Assembly: GCA_029934515.1 (NCBI GenBank)
Contig: JAOZMB010000010.1
Span: 1-44,118, forward strand
Source of the DNA: Bacteroidales bacterium
GTDB lineage: Bacteria; Bacteroidota; Bacteroidia; Bacteroidales; JAADGE01
Direction of reading: 5' to 3'
DNA length: 44,118 nucleotides
The position numbers and the translations under genes were made by a program. This document shows, piece by piece, positions 4,609 to 17,666 of the stretch (the stretch's first letter is position 1; the number at the start of each line of letters is the position of its first letter). The notes beneath the pieces are model-generated. The model saw only the letters and a list, made by a program, of their open reading frames with translations, was not told the origin of the DNA and did not search any database.

Positions 4609-5724
4609 TTATTGTTTTGTTATTAATTTTGCTGTTCTTTTTGAAGCACCTTTACCTCCGAGTATTTTTCTCATTTTTTCAAAATTATTAATCATATTAT
4701 TTTTATATTCAATATTATTAATAATTTTTTCTAATTCGTTTACAAGATTTTCTATTGTCATATCATATTGAATAAACTCTTTAATTATTAGGCTGTCCAT
4801 TATCAGATTTACGAGTGAAGCATATTTTACTTTCACTAATCTTTTTCCTATTTGATATGAAATATTATCACCTCTGTAACATACCAATTCTGGAACATTA
4901 AATAGAGCGGCTTCTAATGTTGCAGTTCCAGATGTTACTATTGCAACTTCCGATAATTGTAAAATATCATAAGTTCTATTAAATATAATTTTAATATCTG
5001 CTTGCTTTGGTTCTATTTGTTTTTTATAAAATTCCAAATCAATAGATGATACAGCAGCGATAATAAATTGAAAATCAGGAAAAAATTTAACAATTTTAAA
5101 CATTACTGGAAGGTTATATTTTATTTCCTGATTCCTACTACCTGGCAATAATGCAATAATTGGTTTGTCTCCCAATTTATATTCATTACAAAATTTATCT
5201 GGTAAATTATTATTATTAAATTGTTCAATTGCATCAAGAAGCGGATTCCCTACGAACTCAACTTTATAATCATATTTTTTATAAAAGTCAATTTCAAAAG
5301 GAAAAATAACAAAAAGTTTATCAACAAATTTTTTTATTTTATATACTCTTGACTGTTTCCAAGCCCAAACTTTTGGAGAAATATAATAATATACTTTAAA
5401 TTTATTGTTATGAGCATATTCTGCTATTCTTAAATTAAATCCAGGGTAATCGACCAAGATTATTACATCTGGTTTATAATTATTCAAATCTGTTTTACAA
5501 AATTTAATACTTCGTAAAATATCTGGTAAGTGAAGAAAGACTTCCAGAAAACCCATGTATGCAATTTCCTTGTAGTGTTTAACAAGAGTACCTCCTTGTG
5601 CAATCATCATGTCTCCTCCACAAAAACGAAACTCTGCATTTTTATCAAATTTTTTAAGTTCGCTCATCAAATTTGAAGCATGTAAATCACCCGATGCCTC
5701 ACCTGCAATAATGTAATATTTCAT
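4609..5724 (-). CDS. lpxB: Lipid-A-disaccharide synthase
   Basis: 371 residues, normal for the GT19 family. LpxB joins UDP-2,3-diacylglucosamine and lipid X to give the tetra-acyl disaccharide of lipid A at the inner membrane. Signatures: GEASGDLHASNLM at residues 8-20, MGFLEVFLHLPDI, VDYPGFNLRIAEY, the strongly conserved YYISPKVWAWKQSR, and LPGSRNQEI followed by TSGTATLEAAL in the nucleotide-sugar-binding half. Its ATG overlaps the stop of the upstream small membrane protein gene (ATGA), so the pair is translationally coupled and the start is well fixed. Other lpx genes lie at 13.4-17.6 kb. Confidence 0.96.
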   Translation of the reverse strand: MKYYIIAGEASGDLHASNLMSELKKFDKNAEFRFCGGDMMIAQGGTLVKHYKEIAYMGFLEVFLHLPDILRSIKFCKTDLNNYKPDVIILVDYPGFNLRIAEYAHNNKFKVYYYISPKVWAWKQSRVYKIKKFVDKLFVIFPFEIDFYKKYDYKVEFVGNPLLDAIEQFNNNNLPDKFCNEYKLGDKPIIALLPGSRNQEIKYNLPVMFKIVKFFPDFQFIIAAVSSIDLEFYKKQIEPKQADIKIIFNRTYDILQLSEVAIVTSGTATLEAALFNVPELVCYRGDNISYQIGKRLVKVKYASLVNLIMDSLIIKEFIQYDMTIENLVNELEKIINNIEYKNNMINNFEKMRKILGGKGASKRTAKLITKQ

Positions 5725-6569: not shown

Positions 6570-8603
6570 ATGAAACCTGATGTTACAGATAGGGCTATTG
6601 CCATTACAAAAAGAATCGTATTAGGAATACTAATAGTAAGTTCGTTTGTTAGTCTGCTTTTGGTATTTAATTATATATCATATACAAATTCGACAACAGA
6701 ACAACAAAAGTATGACGTACTTTCGCAAACACAGAAAGCCGCTAAAGAATTTAATAAAAATTTTAGCGAGTCTATGAGTATTGTTGATAAAATAGCAAAC
6801 GATTTATCTTCCGGAGTAATGCAAAAAGAAGATATTATTGCAAAAATAAAATCTTATGTTAACGATACTTCAAAATTAAAATTTTTTGGTATAGGCGTTG
6901 CCTATCTTCCTCATAATGATATCTCCGATATTAGACGTAATTCGCCTTTTTATTTTAAAAGAGAAAAAAATAGATACATATCAAATAACGAAAAATTTGT
7001 TGAAATTTACTATGTTCCGATTTTAAGATACGACAGCATAACAGATGCAAATATAAAAATAGGAAGTGTTTTTTTAGATTTTTTGTTATCAGATATATTG
7101 GATATCATGGATGCACTTGATTTAAAAAAATCTGGATACGGATTTATTTTATCAGAAAAAGGAACATTTGTTGCACATCCAGTAAATGAATATAACGAAA
7201 TAAAAACAATATTTGAAGTAGCTAAAGAGCGTGATAATAAGAATTTTGCAAAACTTGGCAAAGAAGCTCTTAAAGGAAAATCTGGTGTTCTTGAGCATTC
7301 AGACGACCTTACTGGACAATTATCATGGGTCTTCTACGAGCCTATAAAATCGTTAAACTGGGCGCTTATAATTGTCTTCATAAAAGATGACATCCCTATT
7401 GATAGGAATTATCTGAAAAACTTATCTATTTTTATAAGTCTTTCCTTGCTAACTTTTTTTATATTTGGTTTCGGTTTAATAATTCGTATTCATAAATTGA
7501 CAACTATATCTATGGTTGTTTTTACTATATGGACATCATTACTTCTCTTGGGCGAAATAGCTTATGTATTAGACCTTTCTGTTAAATATGGTGATTTTCA
7601 AGAAAATGAAACAGTTAGAGTTATCGACCGTACAGGAGTTGATAATTATCTTAACAAATATAACCGGCGTGTAGAAAAATTGTGTAAAGATACTATTAAT
7701 TATATTCCTACAGGGATTTTCTTTGAGACGATTGAGTTCCCTAATGCAAATAATGTTTTTTTGTCGGGAACAGTATGGCAGAGATATACTACTGGTATCC
7801 ATGATAATATTGTTGACAGAGGAATTATCTTTCCAGAAGCAATATCTGATAATTTTGTAGATTCGTATCATTACAAAGACGGAAATAATGAAGTATTTGG
7901 ATGGTATTTTAGAATAACACTCCGCAAAAATTTTAGTTATAAAAAATATCCCGTTGATAGAAAAAATTTACTAATTAGAATATTGCCAAGAGATTTTAAA
8001 AATTATATTGTCTTACAGCCAGACTTGGATTCATATAATTTTACGAACCCAAATATGTTGCCAGGTATTTCGGAGAAGCTTGAAGTTGGTGGCTGGGCAA
8101 TGTTGAGCAGTAATTTTGCGTATGAGATGAATAGTTATAATTCAAATTTCAGTCTAAAAGGTTTTAACTGTCGGGAAAAGACTCCAGAATTATTTTTTGA
8201 CATCAAAATGTCTCGGAATTTTCTGGGTACAATATTCTCTGGCTCAATGCCTATTGTAGTCATGCTGGCTATTCTTTTTATTTTACAAACTATCACAATG
8301 CCGGGAGATATGGGAACAGTAGCAAGGATACTCGGACCTACGGGGTCTTTTTTCTTTGCTTCTCTTCTCGCTCATGTTGGATTGCGGGAAACACTCGCTA
8401 TAAAAGACATTGTTTATTTTGAATTTTTCTACATACTGTTATATATGATGATACTTTACGTATTCTTCGATTCCGTTTTAGTAGCTCGACAAAAAGGTTA
8501 TTGGCTTACTGAGTTCCGTAATGATATAATTCCTAAACTCTTATATTGGCCATTCTTTTTGAGTGTTTTGTTAATCGTTTCAATTCTTATGTTATTAGTA
8601 TAA
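6570..8603 (+). CDS. Cache sensor domain fused to a pentameric ligand-gated ion channel-like protein
   Basis: 677 residues. Order: membrane helix 15-37; periplasmic Cache-like domain ~38-275 (GYGFILSEKGTFVAHP, then SLNWALIIVF); helix 283-305, short cytoplasmic turn, helix 312-334; a second periplasmic beta-rich domain ~345-548; four C-terminal helices. The last two parts read as a Cys-loop-type channel: YPVDRKNLLIRIL (460-472) at the YPFDxQ position, GGWA before the pre-M1 strand, PELFFDIKMSRN (539-550) with the pre-M1 arginine, M1 with a proline (MPIVVML), M2 ending LLAHVGLRETL (599-609; compare LIAHIAF in the bacterial channel GLIC), then M3 (612-638) and M4 (655-677). The helix count puts both sensor domains in the periplasm, as a channel requires. 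No kinase, phosphatase or HAMP domain is present. Ligand and ion are unknown. The channel assignment is from motif order, not a computed alignment. Confidence 0.78.
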   Translation: MKPDVTDRAIAITKRIVLGILIVSSFVSLLLVFNYISYTNSTTEQQKYDVLSQTQKAAKEFNKNFSESMSIVDKIANDLSSGVMQKEDIIAKIKSYVNDTSKLKFFGIGVAYLPHNDISDIRRNSPFYFKREKNRYISNNEKFVEIYYVPILRYDSITDANIKIGSVFLDFLLSDILDIMDALDLKKSGYGFILSEKGTFVAHPVNEYNEIKTIFEVAKERDNKNFAKLGKEALKGKSGVLEHSDDLTGQLSWVFYEPIKSLNWALIIVFIKDDIPIDRNYLKNLSIFISLSLLTFFIFGFGLIIRIHKLTTISMVVFTIWTSLLLLGEIAYVLDLSVKYGDFQENETVRVIDRTGVDNYLNKYNRRVEKLCKDTINYIPTGIFFETIEFPNANNVFLSGTVWQRYTTGIHDNIVDRGIIFPEAISDNFVDSYHYKDGNNEVFGWYFRITLRKNFSYKKYPVDRKNLLIRILPRDFKNYIVLQPDLDSYNFTNPNMLPGISEKLEVGGWAMLSSNFAYEMNSYNSNFSLKGFNCREKTPELFFDIKMSRNFLGTIFSGSMPIVVMLAILFILQTITMPGDMGTVARILGPTGSFFFASLLAHVGLRETLAIKDIVYFEFFYILLYMMILYVFFDSVLVARQKGYWLTEFRNDIIPKLLYWPFFLSVLLIVSILMLLV

Positions 8604-8809: not shown

Positions 8810-10339
8810 ATGATAATATTTGGCAAACGAAGTGTAAAATCAAAAATTGTTATTATCATAACTTTGTTATTTGCTTTCTTTATAGTAACATCGTTGATAT
8901 ATACAATTATAAAACTTGATGTACAAGAAAAAAAAGAAATTAAAGAATACAGAGAAACACAAAAGAACGATACAGAAGAGGAGCTGAAAAGTTTTGTATA
9001 TATGGCGTACACGGTTGTTGAAAATAATTATAAAAATGCAACCGATACATCTTACTTGAAGAGTTTTTATGGTCCGCGATTAAAGAATTTTATAAATATT
9101 GTAGAAGAAATACTGAAAGACAAAGCCAATGCGGTTAGTAACGGAAAGTTAAATTTGGCACAGGCACAGGCACAGGCTCTCGAATTGATTGGAAAAATAA
9201 AATATGATAAAGGAGCTGGTTATATATGGGTTATTGACAGTGTGTTGCCAAATCCTACAATGATTTTAGAACCAACAATGCCTGAACTTAAAGATAAAGT
9301 ACTTACAAACGAAAAATTTAATTATGTCTCTGGAACAAAAAAAAATGTATTTACTGAGATAGCAAAAAAATGTAAGAATGACGGTGAAGGTTTTGTTGAT
9401 TATGTATGGTCGCACCCACTGGGTGACAGTACGCAGGCTGAAATTCCTAAATTTGCTTATTCAAGGTTATTCGAAGAATGGGGCTGGATAATATGCACAG
9501 GAATTTATATTGACAATGCAATAAAAGACAGCATGGAGAAAACAAAATCAGACCTCAGAAGATTAAGATATGCAAACGGGACTGGTTATTTCTGGTTAAA
9601 CGATGACACAGAACCTATACCAAAATTGATTATGAACCCTTTTATTCCAGACTTGGAAGGAAAAGTATTAACAGGAAAAAAATATAACCGTGCCTTTGAT
9701 AAAGATTATAATTTATATAAGGCTTTTCATGATGCATGCAAAAAAACAGGTGAAGGCTTTGTTGAATATAAATGGGATAAACCAGCTAAAAATGAACTAA
9801 TCGAAGACGCACAAAAAACATCTTTTGTTAAATTTTTCGAACCATTTGGGTGGGTAATAGGAAGCGGAGTATATATTGACGATATAGAAAAAGAAATTAA
9901 TAAGAAAGTAGAAAAAATGAGAGCAAGGAGAATTAATCTTATTATAAGTTATTTATCTATTTTTACAGGACTCGGAACAGCTTCGATAGGTTTTTTGATT
10001 TATATACTAAACCGTTTATTTAAAAAAACAAAAGAAGAAGAAAATATTATAAAAAAGGAAAATAAAATCACAGAAGATTTACCTCCAGATATTGTAACAG
10101 AGAAAATTGAAAACGAAGAAAGTACAAAACAAGTAAACGACCCTATTGAACCATTTGAAAAATTGTTAAAAATTTTTATGACAGAACATACAAAACTGCT
10201 CGCCGTTCAAAAAACAATCGATAATAATAATTATCATAATATTACAAAAGAAGTTCAGAAACTGGTAAAAGATTTTGAAATATTAAACGAGAAAATGATG
10301 AACGAAGAGAACCATAAGAAAAAGAAAGAAGAAAAATAA
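8810..10339 (+). CDS. Membrane protein with two Cache modules and no output domain
   Basis: 509 residues: membrane helix ~12-36, a helical linker to ~130, two tandem Cache modules, a second membrane helix ~375-400, then ~105 cytoplasmic residues. The modules are recognisable by repeated motifs: GAGYIWVIDS with FEEWGWIICTGIYIDNA (about 136-237), and GTGYFWLNDD with FEPFGWVIGSGVYIDDI (about 257-359). Such modules bind small molecules, often organic acids, in the periplasm of chemoreceptors and kinases. The cytoplasmic tail is charged, coiled-coil-like and has no HAMP, kinase, GGDEF or methyl-accepting domain, so a signal would need a partner protein. A short (GGCACA)3 tract encodes AQAQAQA near residue 117. 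It is convergent with the chemoreceptor gene, 29 bases away. Confidence 0.85.
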   Translation: MIIFGKRSVKSKIVIIITLLFAFFIVTSLIYTIIKLDVQEKKEIKEYRETQKNDTEEELKSFVYMAYTVVENNYKNATDTSYLKSFYGPRLKNFINIVEEILKDKANAVSNGKLNLAQAQAQALELIGKIKYDKGAGYIWVIDSVLPNPTMILEPTMPELKDKVLTNEKFNYVSGTKKNVFTEIAKKCKNDGEGFVDYVWSHPLGDSTQAEIPKFAYSRLFEEWGWIICTGIYIDNAIKDSMEKTKSDLRRLRYANGTGYFWLNDDTEPIPKLIMNPFIPDLEGKVLTGKKYNRAFDKDYNLYKAFHDACKKTGEGFVEYKWDKPAKNELIEDAQKTSFVKFFEPFGWVIGSGVYIDDIEKEINKKVEKMRARRINLIISYLSIFTGLGTASIGFLIYILNRLFKKTKEEENIIKKENKITEDLPPDIVTEKIENEESTKQVNDPIEPFEKLLKIFMTEHTKLLAVQKTIDNNNYHNITKEVQKLVKDFEILNEKMMNEENHKKKKEEK

Positions 10340-10368: not shown

Positions 10369-12270
10369 TTATAAATCTCTAATTTTAAACACAGAAATCA
10401 ATTCTTTTAACTGTTGTGCTTGTGCCGATAACTCTTCGGCAGATGCAGACATCTCTTCGGCAGATGCTGAGTTTTCGTTTGTTATTTCTGTTAGTTGTTG
10501 GACTGAAATATTTACACTTTCGGCTCCGATTTGTTGTTCTTTTCCTGCTGAAACGATTTTATTTACAAGCTCGGCACTTTTTATTATCTCTGGAATTACA
10601 TTTTTTAATTTTTCGCCTGCAATTTTTGAAATATTTTGTCCATCTTGTGATAATTTGTTTATCTCGTTTGATGCAATTTTTGTTTTATCGGCAAGTCTTC
10701 TTATTTCATTTGCTACAACAGAAAAACCTTTACCTACTTCGCCAGCATGAGCCGCTTCAATAGCCGCATTTATTGACAGAATATCTATTTTATTTGCAAT
10801 CTCTGTAATTATTAATATTTTTTTGCTTATAGTAATAACAGAGTTTATAGCTTTTACAAAAAATTCATTGCTCAGCTTCATTTCATTTGCAGATTTTTCA
10901 GAACTTTGTCCAGTTATTTCGGCATTTTGAGAATTTAAATTTATCATTGCCAACATTTCCTCAATTGAAGTTGCAACTTCTTCTGTTGTTGCGGCTTGTT
11001 CGTTTGCCCTATCTGCTATATTCTGCGAAGCAGAACTTAGCTGGTCACTGGCATTTGAAACAGCTATTGCTGTGTTATTTATATTTAAAATTATATCTCT
11101 GAAATTTGTATTGATTTCGTTTATTGAGTTGTAAAGTGTACCAATTTCATCCTTCCTTTTTTCTTTTATTTGAAAATTTATTTCTTTGTTAGATATTTTT
11201 TTTATTGCATTTACAACATTTTCTATCGGCTTAGAAATTGACCTTGATAATAAATAAGCTGAAATTATTATAAATAAGATAGAAATAATAGAAACAATTA
11301 ATATAATCCTTGCTTGTAATTTTACTGGTTTAAGAACTTCGTCAATGTTCACTGTTGAAAAAATCCTCCAATCTAAACCATTTATATTCAATGCAGAGTA
11401 AAAAAGATAATCCTTTTTATTCGTAGTTAATGTTTTAATTACTTCTGTTGTTTTCTTTTTATTCATACAATCTATTATAGTTTCATCTTTTATTTGGTCT
11501 CCAATAGTTTCGTTTGTAAGACGTTTATCTGATTTAAGATTATACTCTGTATTTTCTTTGCCAACAATGTAGATTTCGGAACTTTCATATAATTTATTGT
11601 TATTGTAAATGACTTTATTTATTTTTTTAGATGAAATTTGCATCACAAGAACCCCAATTATTTTTTTATCTCTATAAACTGGCGTGCCAACAAATAATGC
11701 TTGCTCATTGTTTGAAGGTGCATAAGGCTGATAATCAGTTATTATTGTTTTTTGTTTCGTTACGACATCTTTCCAAAGTTTTGCAAGATGTGTATTTTTA
11801 TATTTTCCTACGGATAAATTTGCTCCGAGATCGTCTTCTTTTGATACCGAAAACATTACATGCCCGTGTTCTGCACAAATAAAAAAAGCATCGTAATAAT
11901 TATTTATTCTTATGTATTTTGAAAAATAATTATAATGTTTTTCTGTTAATAGTTTGTAGTCTTCTGTATTTACAGGAAAAGTATCATTTTTATTTGCACC
12001 TGTTTCTTTGTGATAATTCTCTAATATTCTAAACAAATCTTGTATTGCATAAAAATTGCTTTCCATTTTCATTTTAGTTTTTATATCTTTAAAATATTTT
12101 TCTATTTCATGTTTTTTTCTTTTTAAATCGTTAAAAAATATTTTATCTGTATTTTCAGTTATTGTTTTTCTGAAAATATAATCAGCAATTAGACTATCTG
12201 CTACAATTGCTGTTAATCCTACTGTTATAAAAACTATTAGTATTTTTTTGAAAATTGATATATTTTTCAT
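10369..12270 (-). CDS. Methyl-accepting chemotaxis protein with Cache sensor
   Basis: 633 residues with a full chemoreceptor layout: membrane helix ~9-28, periplasmic double-Cache domain ~35-310 (ALFVGTPVYRDKKIIGVLVM, then SALNINGLDWRIFSTV), membrane helix ~320-342, HAMP ~343-395 ending in RKDEIGTLYNSINEI, and a signalling helical hairpin from ~400 to the end. The CheA/CheW-contacting tip is intact: DILSINAAIEAAHAGEVGKG followed by FSVVANEIRRLADKT. Glutamate/alanine-rich helices (TEEVATSIEEM, SASAEEMSASAEEL) are likely methylation segments. No che genes are in the window. It starts 11 bases after the polysaccharide deacetylase gene on the same strand, so the two may be co-transcribed. Confidence 0.95.
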   Translation of the reverse strand: MKNISIFKKILIVFITVGLTAIVADSLIADYIFRKTITENTDKIFFNDLKRKKHEIEKYFKDIKTKMKMESNFYAIQDLFRILENYHKETGANKNDTFPVNTEDYKLLTEKHYNYFSKYIRINNYYDAFFICAEHGHVMFSVSKEDDLGANLSVGKYKNTHLAKLWKDVVTKQKTIITDYQPYAPSNNEQALFVGTPVYRDKKIIGVLVMQISSKKINKVIYNNNKLYESSEIYIVGKENTEYNLKSDKRLTNETIGDQIKDETIIDCMNKKKTTEVIKTLTTNKKDYLFYSALNINGLDWRIFSTVNIDEVLKPVKLQARIILIVSIISILFIIISAYLLSRSISKPIENVVNAIKKISNKEINFQIKEKRKDEIGTLYNSINEINTNFRDIILNINNTAIAVSNASDQLSSASQNIADRANEQAATTEEVATSIEEMLAMINLNSQNAEITGQSSEKSANEMKLSNEFFVKAINSVITISKKILIITEIANKIDILSINAAIEAAHAGEVGKGFSVVANEIRRLADKTKIASNEINKLSQDGQNISKIAGEKLKNVIPEIIKSAELVNKIVSAGKEQQIGAESVNISVQQLTEITNENSASAEEMSASAEELSAQAQQLKELISVFKIRDL

Positions 12271-13385: not shown

Positions 13386-14165
13386 TTATTTTTTGGGAGC
13401 TGGAATAATTCCTCTTTTTGTTTGTTTCATAAAATCAGTTATTTGTTTCTTTATATCAGATTCTGGTATTTCTTCCATAATTTTAGCAAAAGCATTTGTA
13501 AAATTATAACCTCTGCTATAAAGTATTCTGTAAATATCTTGAATTTCGTATATCTGTTCATTTGAGAAGCCTCTTCTTTTTAGTCCTACTGAGTTTATAC
13601 CTGCAAAACTTGCTGGGAACCTTGCCGCTTTTGCATAAGGCGGGATGTCTTTTCCGAGCAATAATCCGCCTTGTGTAAAAGCGTGCTGACCTATTCTTGT
13701 GAACTGATGTACGTTTGTAGAGCCTCCGAGTATTGCGAAATCATTTATCTCAACTTCACCTGCAATTTGAACATTATTTGCCAAGATAACATTTTTTCCT
13801 ATTGTGCAATCATGTGCAACATGACTGTATGCCATTAATATACAATTCTTTCCAAGAACTGTTTTTTCTTTCGCAATAGTTGCTCTATTTACTGTTGCAC
13901 ATTCACGTATAACAGTATTATCTCCAATTTCAGCTGTTGTTATTTCACCTTTAAACTTTAAATCCTGAGGCGGACCCGCTACAACTGCACCTGGGAATAC
14001 TGTTACATTTTTCCCGATTCTTGCTCCGTCCATTATAACGGCATTCGCATATATCTTAGAATTTTCTCCAATAATAACATCCTCATGGATTGTTGCAAAT
14101 GGTTCTATTATAACATTTTTTGCAATTTTTGCATTCGGATGCACATTAACAAATTTTTGTATCAT
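13386..14165 (-). CDS. lpxA: UDP-N-acetylglucosamine O-acyltransferase
   Basis: 259 residues, the normal length. LpxA adds the first 3-hydroxyacyl chain to UDP-GlcNAc, opening lipid A synthesis in the cytoplasm. Hexapeptide repeats forming a left-handed beta helix cover residues 1-190, starting VHPNAKIAKNVIIEPFATIH. The catalytic-histidine region MAYSHVAHDCTIG is present, followed by NNVQIAGEVEINDFAILGG and VHQFTRIGQHAFTQGG; the C-terminal helical part starts near GLKRRGFSNEQI. It begins 3 bases after the lpxC-fabZ stop, giving an operon order lpxC-fabZ, lpxA that is characteristic of Bacteroidota. Confidence 0.97.
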   Translation of the reverse strand: MIQKFVNVHPNAKIAKNVIIEPFATIHEDVIIGENSKIYANAVIMDGARIGKNVTVFPGAVVAGPPQDLKFKGEITTAEIGDNTVIRECATVNRATIAKEKTVLGKNCILMAYSHVAHDCTIGKNVILANNVQIAGEVEINDFAILGGSTNVHQFTRIGQHAFTQGGLLLGKDIPPYAKAARFPASFAGINSVGLKRRGFSNEQIYEIQDIYRILYSRGYNFTNAFAKIMEEIPESDIKKQITDFMKQTKRGIIPAPKK

Positions 14166-14168
14166 ATT

Positions 14169-15563
14169 TTATTTTTCTTTTACAATTTGAGCCATTAATT
14201 GACCTTCGGTAACAAGATTTTCTCCGACAAATGCCTGAGCTTTCATATTTGCAATTCCTCGTCGAACAGGTGCAATAAGTTCTAATTTAAAAATTATTGT
14301 ATCGCCAGGAAAAACCATTCTCTTAAATTTTACTTTGTCAATTTTAAGAAAATAAGTAAGATAATTTTCTGGGTCTTTTACTGTATTTAACACAAGAACA
14401 CCGCCTGTTTGTGCCATTGCTTCAACAATTAATACACCTGGCATAACTGGTTTTCCGGGAAAATGTCCTCTAAAAAAAGGTTCATTTATAGTAACGTTTT
14501 TCAAACCAATAACTACTTTATCAGTTTGTTTCAGGATTTTATCTATTAACAGAAAAGGAGGACGGTGTGGTAGTCCTTTCATTATTCCGTTAATATCAAC
14601 CACAGGAACAGCATTTATATCAATATCAGGAGCGTTTTTTCTTTTTCGTCTTTTTTTTATCTCCTGTCTTATTTTTTTTGCAAACATAACATTTGAATAA
14701 TGACCGGGACGTGTTGCCAGGATTTTACCTTTTATTGGCATAGCTGTCAGTGCAAGGTCTCCGATTAAATCGAGCAGTTTGTGTCTTGCTGGTTCGTTTT
14801 GAAATATTAAATCTTGTTCATTTAATATTCCTTGACCTATATATTTTCTGCGTGGTTTGTTAAATAGGTCTGCAATTCTGTCTAGTTCTTTCTGTGTTGT
14901 TTCTTTTTCTATAATTACAAGAGCGTTCTGTAAATCGCCTCCTTTTATCAAATTATTTTTTAGAAGTAGTTCTAATTCTTTTAGAAATACAAATGTTTTA
15001 CATGTAGAAATTTCATTTACGTAATTTTTCAACGATTTCAGGACAGCAAATTGATTTCCAAGAACACTTGAATTATAATCAATCATAACATTAATATTCA
15101 ACTCGTTATCTGGAAATACCTCTATTTCAATTCCAGATTTTTCATCTATATATTTTATATTATTTTTAATAACAAAATATTTTTTGTCTGCATTTTGCTC
15201 AACAATACCAGCTTCTTTTATCGCCTCTACGTACAAACCAGCTGATCCGTCAAGAATTGGTATTTCAGGTCCTGTAACATCAATTAAAATATTATCTATT
15301 CCCAATCCGTAAACAGCAGACAACACATGCTCGACTGTTGCTATTCTTGCTTTTCCTTCACACAAAACCGTACTCCTAGATGTATCCACAACATTCTCTG
15401 CAACGGCATTAATAATTGGTTTTTCTTTAAGGTCTGTTCTACGAAATTTATATCCGTGATTTTCTGGTGCTGGATTAAAAGTTATTTCTGCTTCTGCTGC
15501 TGTATGCAGACCTTTGCCTTTTAAACTTATAACTCTATTTATCGTTTTTTGTTTTTCTGACAT
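14169..15563 (-). CDS. lpxC-fabZ: Bifunctional LpxC deacetylase / FabZ dehydratase
   Basis: 464 residues made of two enzymes. Residues 1-300 are LpxC, the zinc deacetylase and committed step of lipid A synthesis: KGKGLHTAAEAEITFNPAPE, zinc ligands His79 (ATVEHVLSA), His261 and Asp265 (HKLLDLIGDLAL). Residues ~328-464 are FabZ, the 3-hydroxyacyl-ACP dehydratase: LPHRPPFLLIDK, the catalytic His367 in FFRGHFPGKPVMPG, and Glu381 in VEAMAQTGG. A basic linker KKRRKRKN separates them. This fusion is a hallmark of Bacteroidota and couples lipid A to fatty acid supply. The dispersed repeat lies 40 bases upstream, in the same orientation. Confidence 0.97.
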   Translation of the reverse strand: MSEKQKTINRVISLKGKGLHTAAEAEITFNPAPENHGYKFRRTDLKEKPIINAVAENVVDTSRSTVLCEGKARIATVEHVLSAVYGLGIDNILIDVTGPEIPILDGSAGLYVEAIKEAGIVEQNADKKYFVIKNNIKYIDEKSGIEIEVFPDNELNINVMIDYNSSVLGNQFAVLKSLKNYVNEISTCKTFVFLKELELLLKNNLIKGGDLQNALVIIEKETTQKELDRIADLFNKPRRKYIGQGILNEQDLIFQNEPARHKLLDLIGDLALTAMPIKGKILATRPGHYSNVMFAKKIRQEIKKRRKRKNAPDIDINAVPVVDINGIMKGLPHRPPFLLIDKILKQTDKVVIGLKNVTINEPFFRGHFPGKPVMPGVLIVEAMAQTGGVLVLNTVKDPENYLTYFLKIDKVKFKRMVFPGDTIIFKLELIAPVRRGIANMKAQAFVGENLVTEGQLMAQIVKEK

Positions 15564-16577: not shown

Positions 16578-17600
16578 TTATTTATCGTATAATATTTTAT
16601 CAATTTTTCTTTTCAAATCAGGAAGCATATTTATAATTGCAAATGTTCTGTACCAGTTTCTCATTCCCGTGACTGGTGTTCCTTGCATCACTGCATTTTT
16701 CTTTTTTATACTTTTATGAACTCCAGATTGTGCGCCTATTTTTACGCCGTCTGCAATTACGAGATGCCCGGCAAAACCAACCTGACCTCCAATCATACAA
16801 TTTTTTCCTATTTTAGTTGAACCAGAGATAGCTGTTTGTGCTGCGATTACTGTATTTTCACCGACCTCAACATTGTGAGCAATTTGTATAAGATTATCTA
16901 ATTTAACTCCTGCACGTATTATTGTTGAGCCAATTGTTGCTCTGTCAATAGTTGTGTTTGCTCCGACCTCGACATTATCTTCGATTATAACATTTCCCAA
17001 TTGGGGTATTTTTTTGAACTCTGTATCCATTTGTGGTACAAAACCAAAACCATCGCTACCAATAATAGTTCCAGAATGTATTACACAGTTCTTTCCTATT
17101 TTTGTATCTTTGTATATATTAACTCCAGAATATATTTCTGTATTATCGTCAATTTTAACTTTCTCGCTAATGTGAGTATTTGAAAGAATAGTAACATTAT
17201 TACCAATTATTGTATCTTTATCTATAAAAACAAAAGGCTCAATATAAACATTTTCACCTATTTTTGCTGTTTTGTGTATATGTGTATTTTCAGAAATACC
17301 AGTTCTGTTTTTTTTATTTAAATTGTTATACAGTTCAAGTATTGAGGCAAAAGCTTTATAGGCATCAGGTACTCTTATCAATGTAGCGTTAATTTGTCGT
17401 TCTGCGACAAAATCATTATTTACAATAACAACTGAGGCTGTTGTTTCGTAAATATATTTTGTATATTTTGGATTTGCAAGGAACGAGAGTGTTGCTTCGC
17501 CTCCGTCTTCTATCTTCGAGATATTTGAAACAAATACTTTTTTGTCTCCTTCAACATTTCCGTTCAAAAATTCGGCAATTTTTTCTGCAGTAAATTTCAT
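16578..17600 (-). CDS. lpxD: UDP-3-O-acylglucosamine N-acyltransferase
   Basis: 340 residues from the chosen start. LpxD adds the second hydroxyacyl chain to the deacetylated UDP-glucosamine derivative made by LpxC. Residues 1-95 form the N-terminal uridine-binding domain (FTAEKIAEFLNGNVEG, ATLSFLANPKYTKYIY), then hexapeptide repeats of the left-handed beta helix, with the catalytic-histidine region IQIAHNVEVGENTVIAAQTA followed by GGQVGFAGHLVIADGVKIGA. An ATG six codons earlier (17618) is possible, but MKFTAEKIAEF matches the usual family N-terminus, and a TAAATTTG -7-like element lies at 17616-17623, which would put the earlier start at or before the transcript start. Confidence 0.95.
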   Translation of the reverse strand: MKFTAEKIAEFLNGNVEGDKKVFVSNISKIEDGGEATLSFLANPKYTKYIYETTASVVIVNNDFVAERQINATLIRVPDAYKAFASILELYNNLNKKNRTGISENTHIHKTAKIGENVYIEPFVFIDKDTIIGNNVTILSNTHISEKVKIDDNTEIYSGVNIYKDTKIGKNCVIHSGTIIGSDGFGFVPQMDTEFKKIPQLGNVIIEDNVEVGANTTIDRATIGSTIIRAGVKLDNLIQIAHNVEVGENTVIAAQTAISGSTKIGKNCMIGGQVGFAGHLVIADGVKIGAQSGVHKSIKKKNAVMQGTPVTGMRNWYRTFAIINMLPDLKRKIDKILYDK

Positions 17601-17666
17601 GTATATTTTTTTTTGCAAATTTAATTAAATAAACTAAATTTTTATGATTTTTTATAAAAATAATAT

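Follow-up and report, generated by a model that had tools for sequence, protein, structure and literature searches.

What does a bacterial gene do that places a recognizable sensor in front of an ion channel? The question is raised by an open reading frame on the plus strand (positions 6570-8603, ATG to TAA, 677 codons, 677 amino acids) of the 44,118-nucleotide stretch of Bacteroidales DNA analyzed here, which we call the window. Little is known of what prokaryotic pentameric ligand-gated ion channels (pLGICs), which are related to the nicotinic, glycine, and GABA receptors, do in their native hosts. In this gene, a sensor is joined to such a channel, and the fusion has been kept in three distant lineages, including cultured Vibrio and green sulfur bacteria.

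Our findings confirm, as far as sequence comparison goes, that the gene encodes a Cache sensor fused to a pLGIC-type channel half. Hydropathy marks six helices in the protein (residues 16-34, 287-305, 316-334, 554-572, 620-638, and 659-677). The first, TM1 (6615-6671), is an N-terminal anchor, followed by the Cache domain (residues 35-286; 6672-7427), the distal half of which is shortened; TM2 (residues 287-305) and TM3 (residues 316-334) form a two-helix hairpin (7428-7571), recognized also by conservation among the Cache-channels. Behind them come the pLGIC extracellular domain (residues 374-548; 7689-8213), delimited by hhalign to plain pLGICs and by HMMER to GLIC, then M1 (residues 554-572; 8229-8285), M2, the predicted pore helix (about residues 583-605; 8316-8384), M3 (residues 611-638; 8400-8483; hydropathy and hhalign), and M4 (residues 659-677; 8544-8600; hydropathy and conservation). 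M2 is less hydrophobic and was placed by homology, in a gap-free hhalign register to plain pLGICs; hydropathy does detect it in several homologues. Net positive charge at the N-terminus, in the hairpin loop, and in the M3-M4 loop fits a cytoplasmic location of all three and a periplasmic one of both large domains. Thus, the three membrane helices ahead of the channel ectodomain and the hairpin topology, both claimed in a preliminary description of the gene, are borne out by hydropathy and loop charge. The antisense frame at 7569-7871 spans 100 amino acids only.

The Cache-like front domain of that description also holds: in Pfam, sCache_2 matches above its cut-off (E 7.5e-6) and dCache_1 significantly, though below its own (E 4.4e-9), the PDB matches of this half are sensors of dCache histidine kinases (3li8/3lib) and of methyl-accepting chemotaxis proteins (MCPs), and the Cache profile match sits between two transmembrane helices. 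Built from 13 full-length members of the family, a profile spans a complete dCache domain (3lib, E 1.7e-16). The MCP signaling domain (MCPsignal) has no Pfam match in the protein.

As a single sequence, the channel half has no match in Pfam or NCBIfam, so such genes can stand in databases as hypothetical proteins; its best PDB match is the GABA-A delta subunit, at E 0.23 and in the expected register. A profile of ten Bacteroidales homologues (A2) matches GLIC in the PDB at E 1.9e-9, from the Pro-loop region through M4, and hhalign against nine plain bacterial pLGICs (A4) gives a probability of 99.4 and E 6.8e-22 over 249 columns, the match beginning close to the ectodomain start. Reciprocally, the A4 profile finds a single match in the whole genome of the window, this gene (E 1.7e-12), and one plain pLGIC that acts as a bridge (L036) reaches, as a single sequence, E values as low as 1.6e-14 against GLIC chimeras and ELIC. 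Profile E values of this order, to GLIC and to plain pLGICs, exclude chance; the comparison with known pLGICs that the preliminary description had proposed returns GLIC as the best PDB match by profile. PF02931 had no match in the own genome and none in the controls, and is uninformative here.

The landmarks follow in the order first read from the sequence: a P-x-D Pro-loop (YPVD, residues 460-463; 7947-7958), which aligns with YPMDKQ of the bridging plain pLGIC, the basic pre-M1 residue R549 (8214-8216), the M1 proline P561, LLAHVGL at the end of M2 (residues 599-605), and then M3 and M4, so that four transmembrane helices lie behind the ectodomain by both hydropathy and profile alignment. 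In 23 homologues with Cache and channel, invariance reaches 95% or more at P461, D463, R549, P561, R606, E618, Y621, and Y625. There is no Cys near YPVD to form the Cys-loop disulfide pair, and the protein therefore groups with the Pro-loop prokaryotic forms, not with animal Cys-loop receptors. The protein lacks the proline of the M2-M3 loop, which is frequent in the superfamily but not taken as defining; in hhalign, L609 stands opposite the proline of the plain pLGIC. M2 itself is atypical (GPTGSFFF, with G589, P590, G592, and three Phe). The loop between M1 and M2 is of variable length, and M2 has no charged ring that is conserved among the Cache-channels. In the gap-free hhalign register, the 9' gate position coincides with or adjoins one of the Phe residues F594-F596, with F595 or F596 as the nearest candidates; the HMMER register to GLIC is shifted by about one helical turn, and since the registers differ by up to that much, the pore residues are not to be over-read. 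An AF2 model of the window protein with its closest relative (L026, 69% identical), from a two-row alignment, had a pLDDT of 32.

How widely is the fusion distributed? Clear channel-half homologues occur in nine of 393 genomes of the order, including the window's own, one genome holding two. Wider in the phylum they were found in 14 genomes, all of one family; the FMO bacteriochlorophyll protein is present in 13 of these carriers, which are therefore green sulfur bacteria. Ten of the 14 are at least 90% complete with at most 5% contamination; many of the searched genomes are drafts, and absences are approximate. In a plasmid collection, three Vibrio isolates, Vibrio sp. THAF191d among the Vibrio carriers, have a 692-aa homologue of the same architecture, and Acaryochloris marina a Cache-less one annotated as "hypothetical protein" (WP_012166950.1, P0002). 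The A. marina member (L068, 4818-6278) lies on the conjugative plasmid pREC1 and has about 100 extra C-terminal residues. A scan of genome contigs with the window protein alone returned one relative, and no relatives were found among viral contigs or phages. Three other, weak candidates from the order were rejected as homologues: L037, which is GAPDH-like and preceded by a brief stretch of chance similarity, an unrelated protein (L038), and a 73-aa fragment (L039).

In the tree, 26 proteins of the Cache-channel type form one clade (support 100/100), separate from plain pLGICs. Long branches, those of Vibrio among them, make the inner order uncertain. One Cache-less protein (L031) and the Acaryochloris member pair inside the Cache clade (99/94), each keeping one leading helix, which suggests secondary loss of the Cache domain. 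At the threshold used, three helices ahead of the channel ectodomain are present in almost every one of the 23 members with Cache, which makes the hairpin a trait of the family; a survey of the fusion, another step the preliminary description had suggested, finds one seven-helix layout shared by Bacteroidales, green sulfur bacteria, and Vibrio.

The preliminary description had held a Cache module joined to such a channel through a two-helix hairpin to be functionally undescribed. The fusion architecture was in fact already reported in 2004 and is thus a known one; the literature yielded neither functional data nor any experimental test of Cache-channel fusions. In Methanosarcina, Cytophaga, and Microbulbifer, Tasneem et al. 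(2004; PMC549065) described prokaryotic pLGICs that bear MCP-N and Cache domains at the N-terminus; they also noted channel operons with PBP-II genes and, in Rhodopseudomonas, a free-standing Cache gene that shares an operon with a channel, and they proposed that such channels are chemotactic receptors. No other paper joining Cache or dCache with a pLGIC was found, in a search that left subscription journals and preprints mostly outside; Jaiteh et al. (2016; PMC4795631) left flanking domains out of consideration, remarking that the evidence for such associations came from genomes alone. The Cache/MCP-N-fused ART-LGICs of Tasneem et al. resemble the window protein in bearing a Cache-type sensor N-terminal to a complete pLGIC, and the present family in their sporadic distribution and in operons with solute-binding or Cache genes; they likely belong to the same clade. 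No hairpin is named in the text consulted, whereas the window protein has a hairpin, a shortened distal Cache, and a dual-Cache neighbor. New here are one strongly supported seven-helix clade in Bacteroidales, green sulfur bacteria, and Vibrio, green sulfur channels in genomes without CheW, and a shortened Cache and companion gene particular to the subclade of the window.

Among better-known systems, GLIC shares with the window protein the extracellular domain with M1-M4, the Pro-loop, the pre-M1 Arg, and the M1 Pro, but has neither Cache nor hairpin, whereas the window protein diverges in M2 and in its M2-M3 loop. DeCLIC, described in 2022 as the only member of known structure with an N-terminal extra domain, is likewise a prokaryotic pLGIC with additional N-terminal periplasmic domains; these are two jelly-roll lobes packed on the extracellular domain, in contrast to a Cache attached via a membrane hairpin (PMC9897478). 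The dCache receptors (Methanosarcina-type kinases 3li8/3lib; PctA-type MCPs) have the same TM-Cache-TM front half, yet their output is a kinase or MCP module and not a channel.

Within the clade, the window protein stands out by its Cache. The membrane-distal segment counts 62 residues in it and in its closest relative, against 81-102 in 21 other Cache-channels, and the absent piece holds the W...W stretch of the distal module; the third gene of the subclade, in genome G200, also has a short distal segment as judged by eye. The distal ligand pocket of the window Cache may be reduced or lost. Downstream on the same strand, after a gap of 206 nt, lies a companion gene (8810-10339). Its product, a membrane protein of 509 aa, consists of a double Cache region (dCache_2, E 4.2e-85) and a cytoplasmic part of about 100 residues in which no known output domain was found. 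No terminator-like site was found in the gap, and promoter matches are close to shuffle level. Homologues that equal the companion in size and architecture are confined to three of 393 genomes, the window's own, G036, and G200, each directly downstream of a channel gene, and the channels of these three genomes form one 100/100 subclade; elsewhere, three weaker matches lie within longer frames. The channel gene of G200 (L028, G200:C121 3690-5647) is broken, a 195-aa Cache fragment stopping before the channel frame, through either decay or an assembly error. The companion is possibly a partner of the channel in this subclade. A bolder reading, which we regard as doubtful, is that the subclade channel has lost its own Cache pocket and that the adjacent, output-less dual-Cache protein would sense in its stead as an auxiliary subunit, the two genes making up a Che-independent electrical system.

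What, then, might the fusion do? A sensory channel with ion flux or membrane potential as output is the most economical model, and one we hold to be moderately probable. Starting from the observed domain content, the topology given by hydropathy and charge, and the conservation of gating-related residues, the gene product would be one subunit of an inner-membrane channel of the pentameric ligand-gated type. In the architecture that the sequence shows, the periplasmic Cache sensor has a TM1/TM2 pair to itself and is linked through the short cytoplasmic TM2-TM3 turn to the β-sandwich ectodomain and M1-M4. The Cache domains, perhaps aided in this subclade by the dual-Cache companion, would sense a periplasmic chemical signal; the hairpin helices might then shift against the channel helices or the ectodomain and so bias opening of the M2 pore, which would conduct and change ion flux and membrane potential. 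Besides the homology of both halves, the adjacent companion gene, the shortened distal Cache, and the lack of CheW domains in the green sulfur carriers, two observations count for this sensory channel model: the Cache fusion falls within one 100/100 clade with the same front helices, and the gene context points to solute sensing in Vibrio, where the channel gene, in a series of overlapping genes, comes after an SBP_bac_3 gene and overlaps a permease-like one, and in one green sulfur genome, with SBP/ABC, STAS, HATPase, and permease genes upstream. The atypical M2, the absent M2-M3 proline, and a companion conserved in three genomes only count against it. Cache sensors of known receptors, moreover, usually act as dimers, an awkward fit to a pentamer. 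Overall, the term bacterial ionotropic chemoreceptor, offered in the preliminary description, is plausible for a sensory channel; the shortened distal half of this Cache domain and the occurrence of the family in green sulfur bacteria without CheW domains keep it tentative.

GLIC is proton-gated at its ectodomain and provides the model for the alternative that survives best, though we think it unlikely: the channel would be gated directly at the pLGIC ectodomain, with Cache and hairpin as a module for modulation, assembly, or anchoring. The nested Cache-less pair and the shortened distal half of the window Cache agree with such gating, as does DeCLIC, whose N-terminal domain affects gating kinetics and is not known to drive gating (PMC9897478); however, Cache and hairpin have been kept together over three distant lineages, which suggests functional weight. 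Less probable still is that, as Tasneem et al. proposed, the protein is a sensory channel in chemotaxis, its ion flux altering motility through the Che system or the motors. The own genome does hold four CheW-domain matches, two of which fall in frames the size of CheA, MCPsignal matches it 16 times in 15 frames, an MCP gene lies two genes away, and CheW domains occur in seven of the eight other Bacteroidales carriers. Yet no CheW domain was found in any of the 14 green sulfur carriers, nor in G113, with a profile whose control was positive in seven well-known genomes, and the window protein itself lacks an MCP signaling domain. The Che phosphorelay thus cannot be the general route of the family, and the absence of CheW from green sulfur carriers speaks against the 2004 proposal as a general function; an electrical or ionic output with no need of this phosphorelay is supported for the family and may be extended to the present genome. 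Finally, a non-conducting receptor, in which an inactive pore leaves the pLGIC scaffold to relay conformation to partners such as the companion, could explain the G, P, and Phe residues of M2, the variable M1-M2 loop, and the want of a conserved charged ring, but is very improbable. Against it stands the invariance, in 23 sequences, of the Pro-loop, the pre-M1 Arg, the M1 Pro, and residues of M3, which selection on gating would predict.

If the sensory channel model is true, a Cache-gated channel would make the coupling of sensor to gate approachable with swappable sensor domains, and the relatives, many of them in bacteria without chemotaxis genes, make Cache-channel function newly testable.

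The remaining observations concern the neighborhoods. The MCP gene of the window (10369-12270, minus strand), at most a possible member of the same system, encodes HAMP and signaling domains that match Pfam, and a periplasmic sensor region without match at the threshold used. Lipid A genes surround the sensory genes (4609-5724, 13386-15563, and 16578-17618, minus strand), with LpxB, an LpxA-type protein, an LpxC-FabZ fusion, and LpxD represented. Four nt upstream of the G483 channel lies a gene for a TM-periplasmic-TM protein (L077, 5148-6092), Cache-like by eye but without match in Pfam and PDB, and not counted as Cache. Across the green sulfur channels, the only recurring neighbors, seen in four of seven genomes, are a gene for a ShlB-like transporter and one for a very large protein; near the channels, at L078, L079, L080, and L083, these two resemble a two-partner secretion pair. 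Four green sulfur genomes (G491, G502, G690, and G662) also hold a second pLGIC-type gene (L060-L063), apparently of the plain form, L063 being short.
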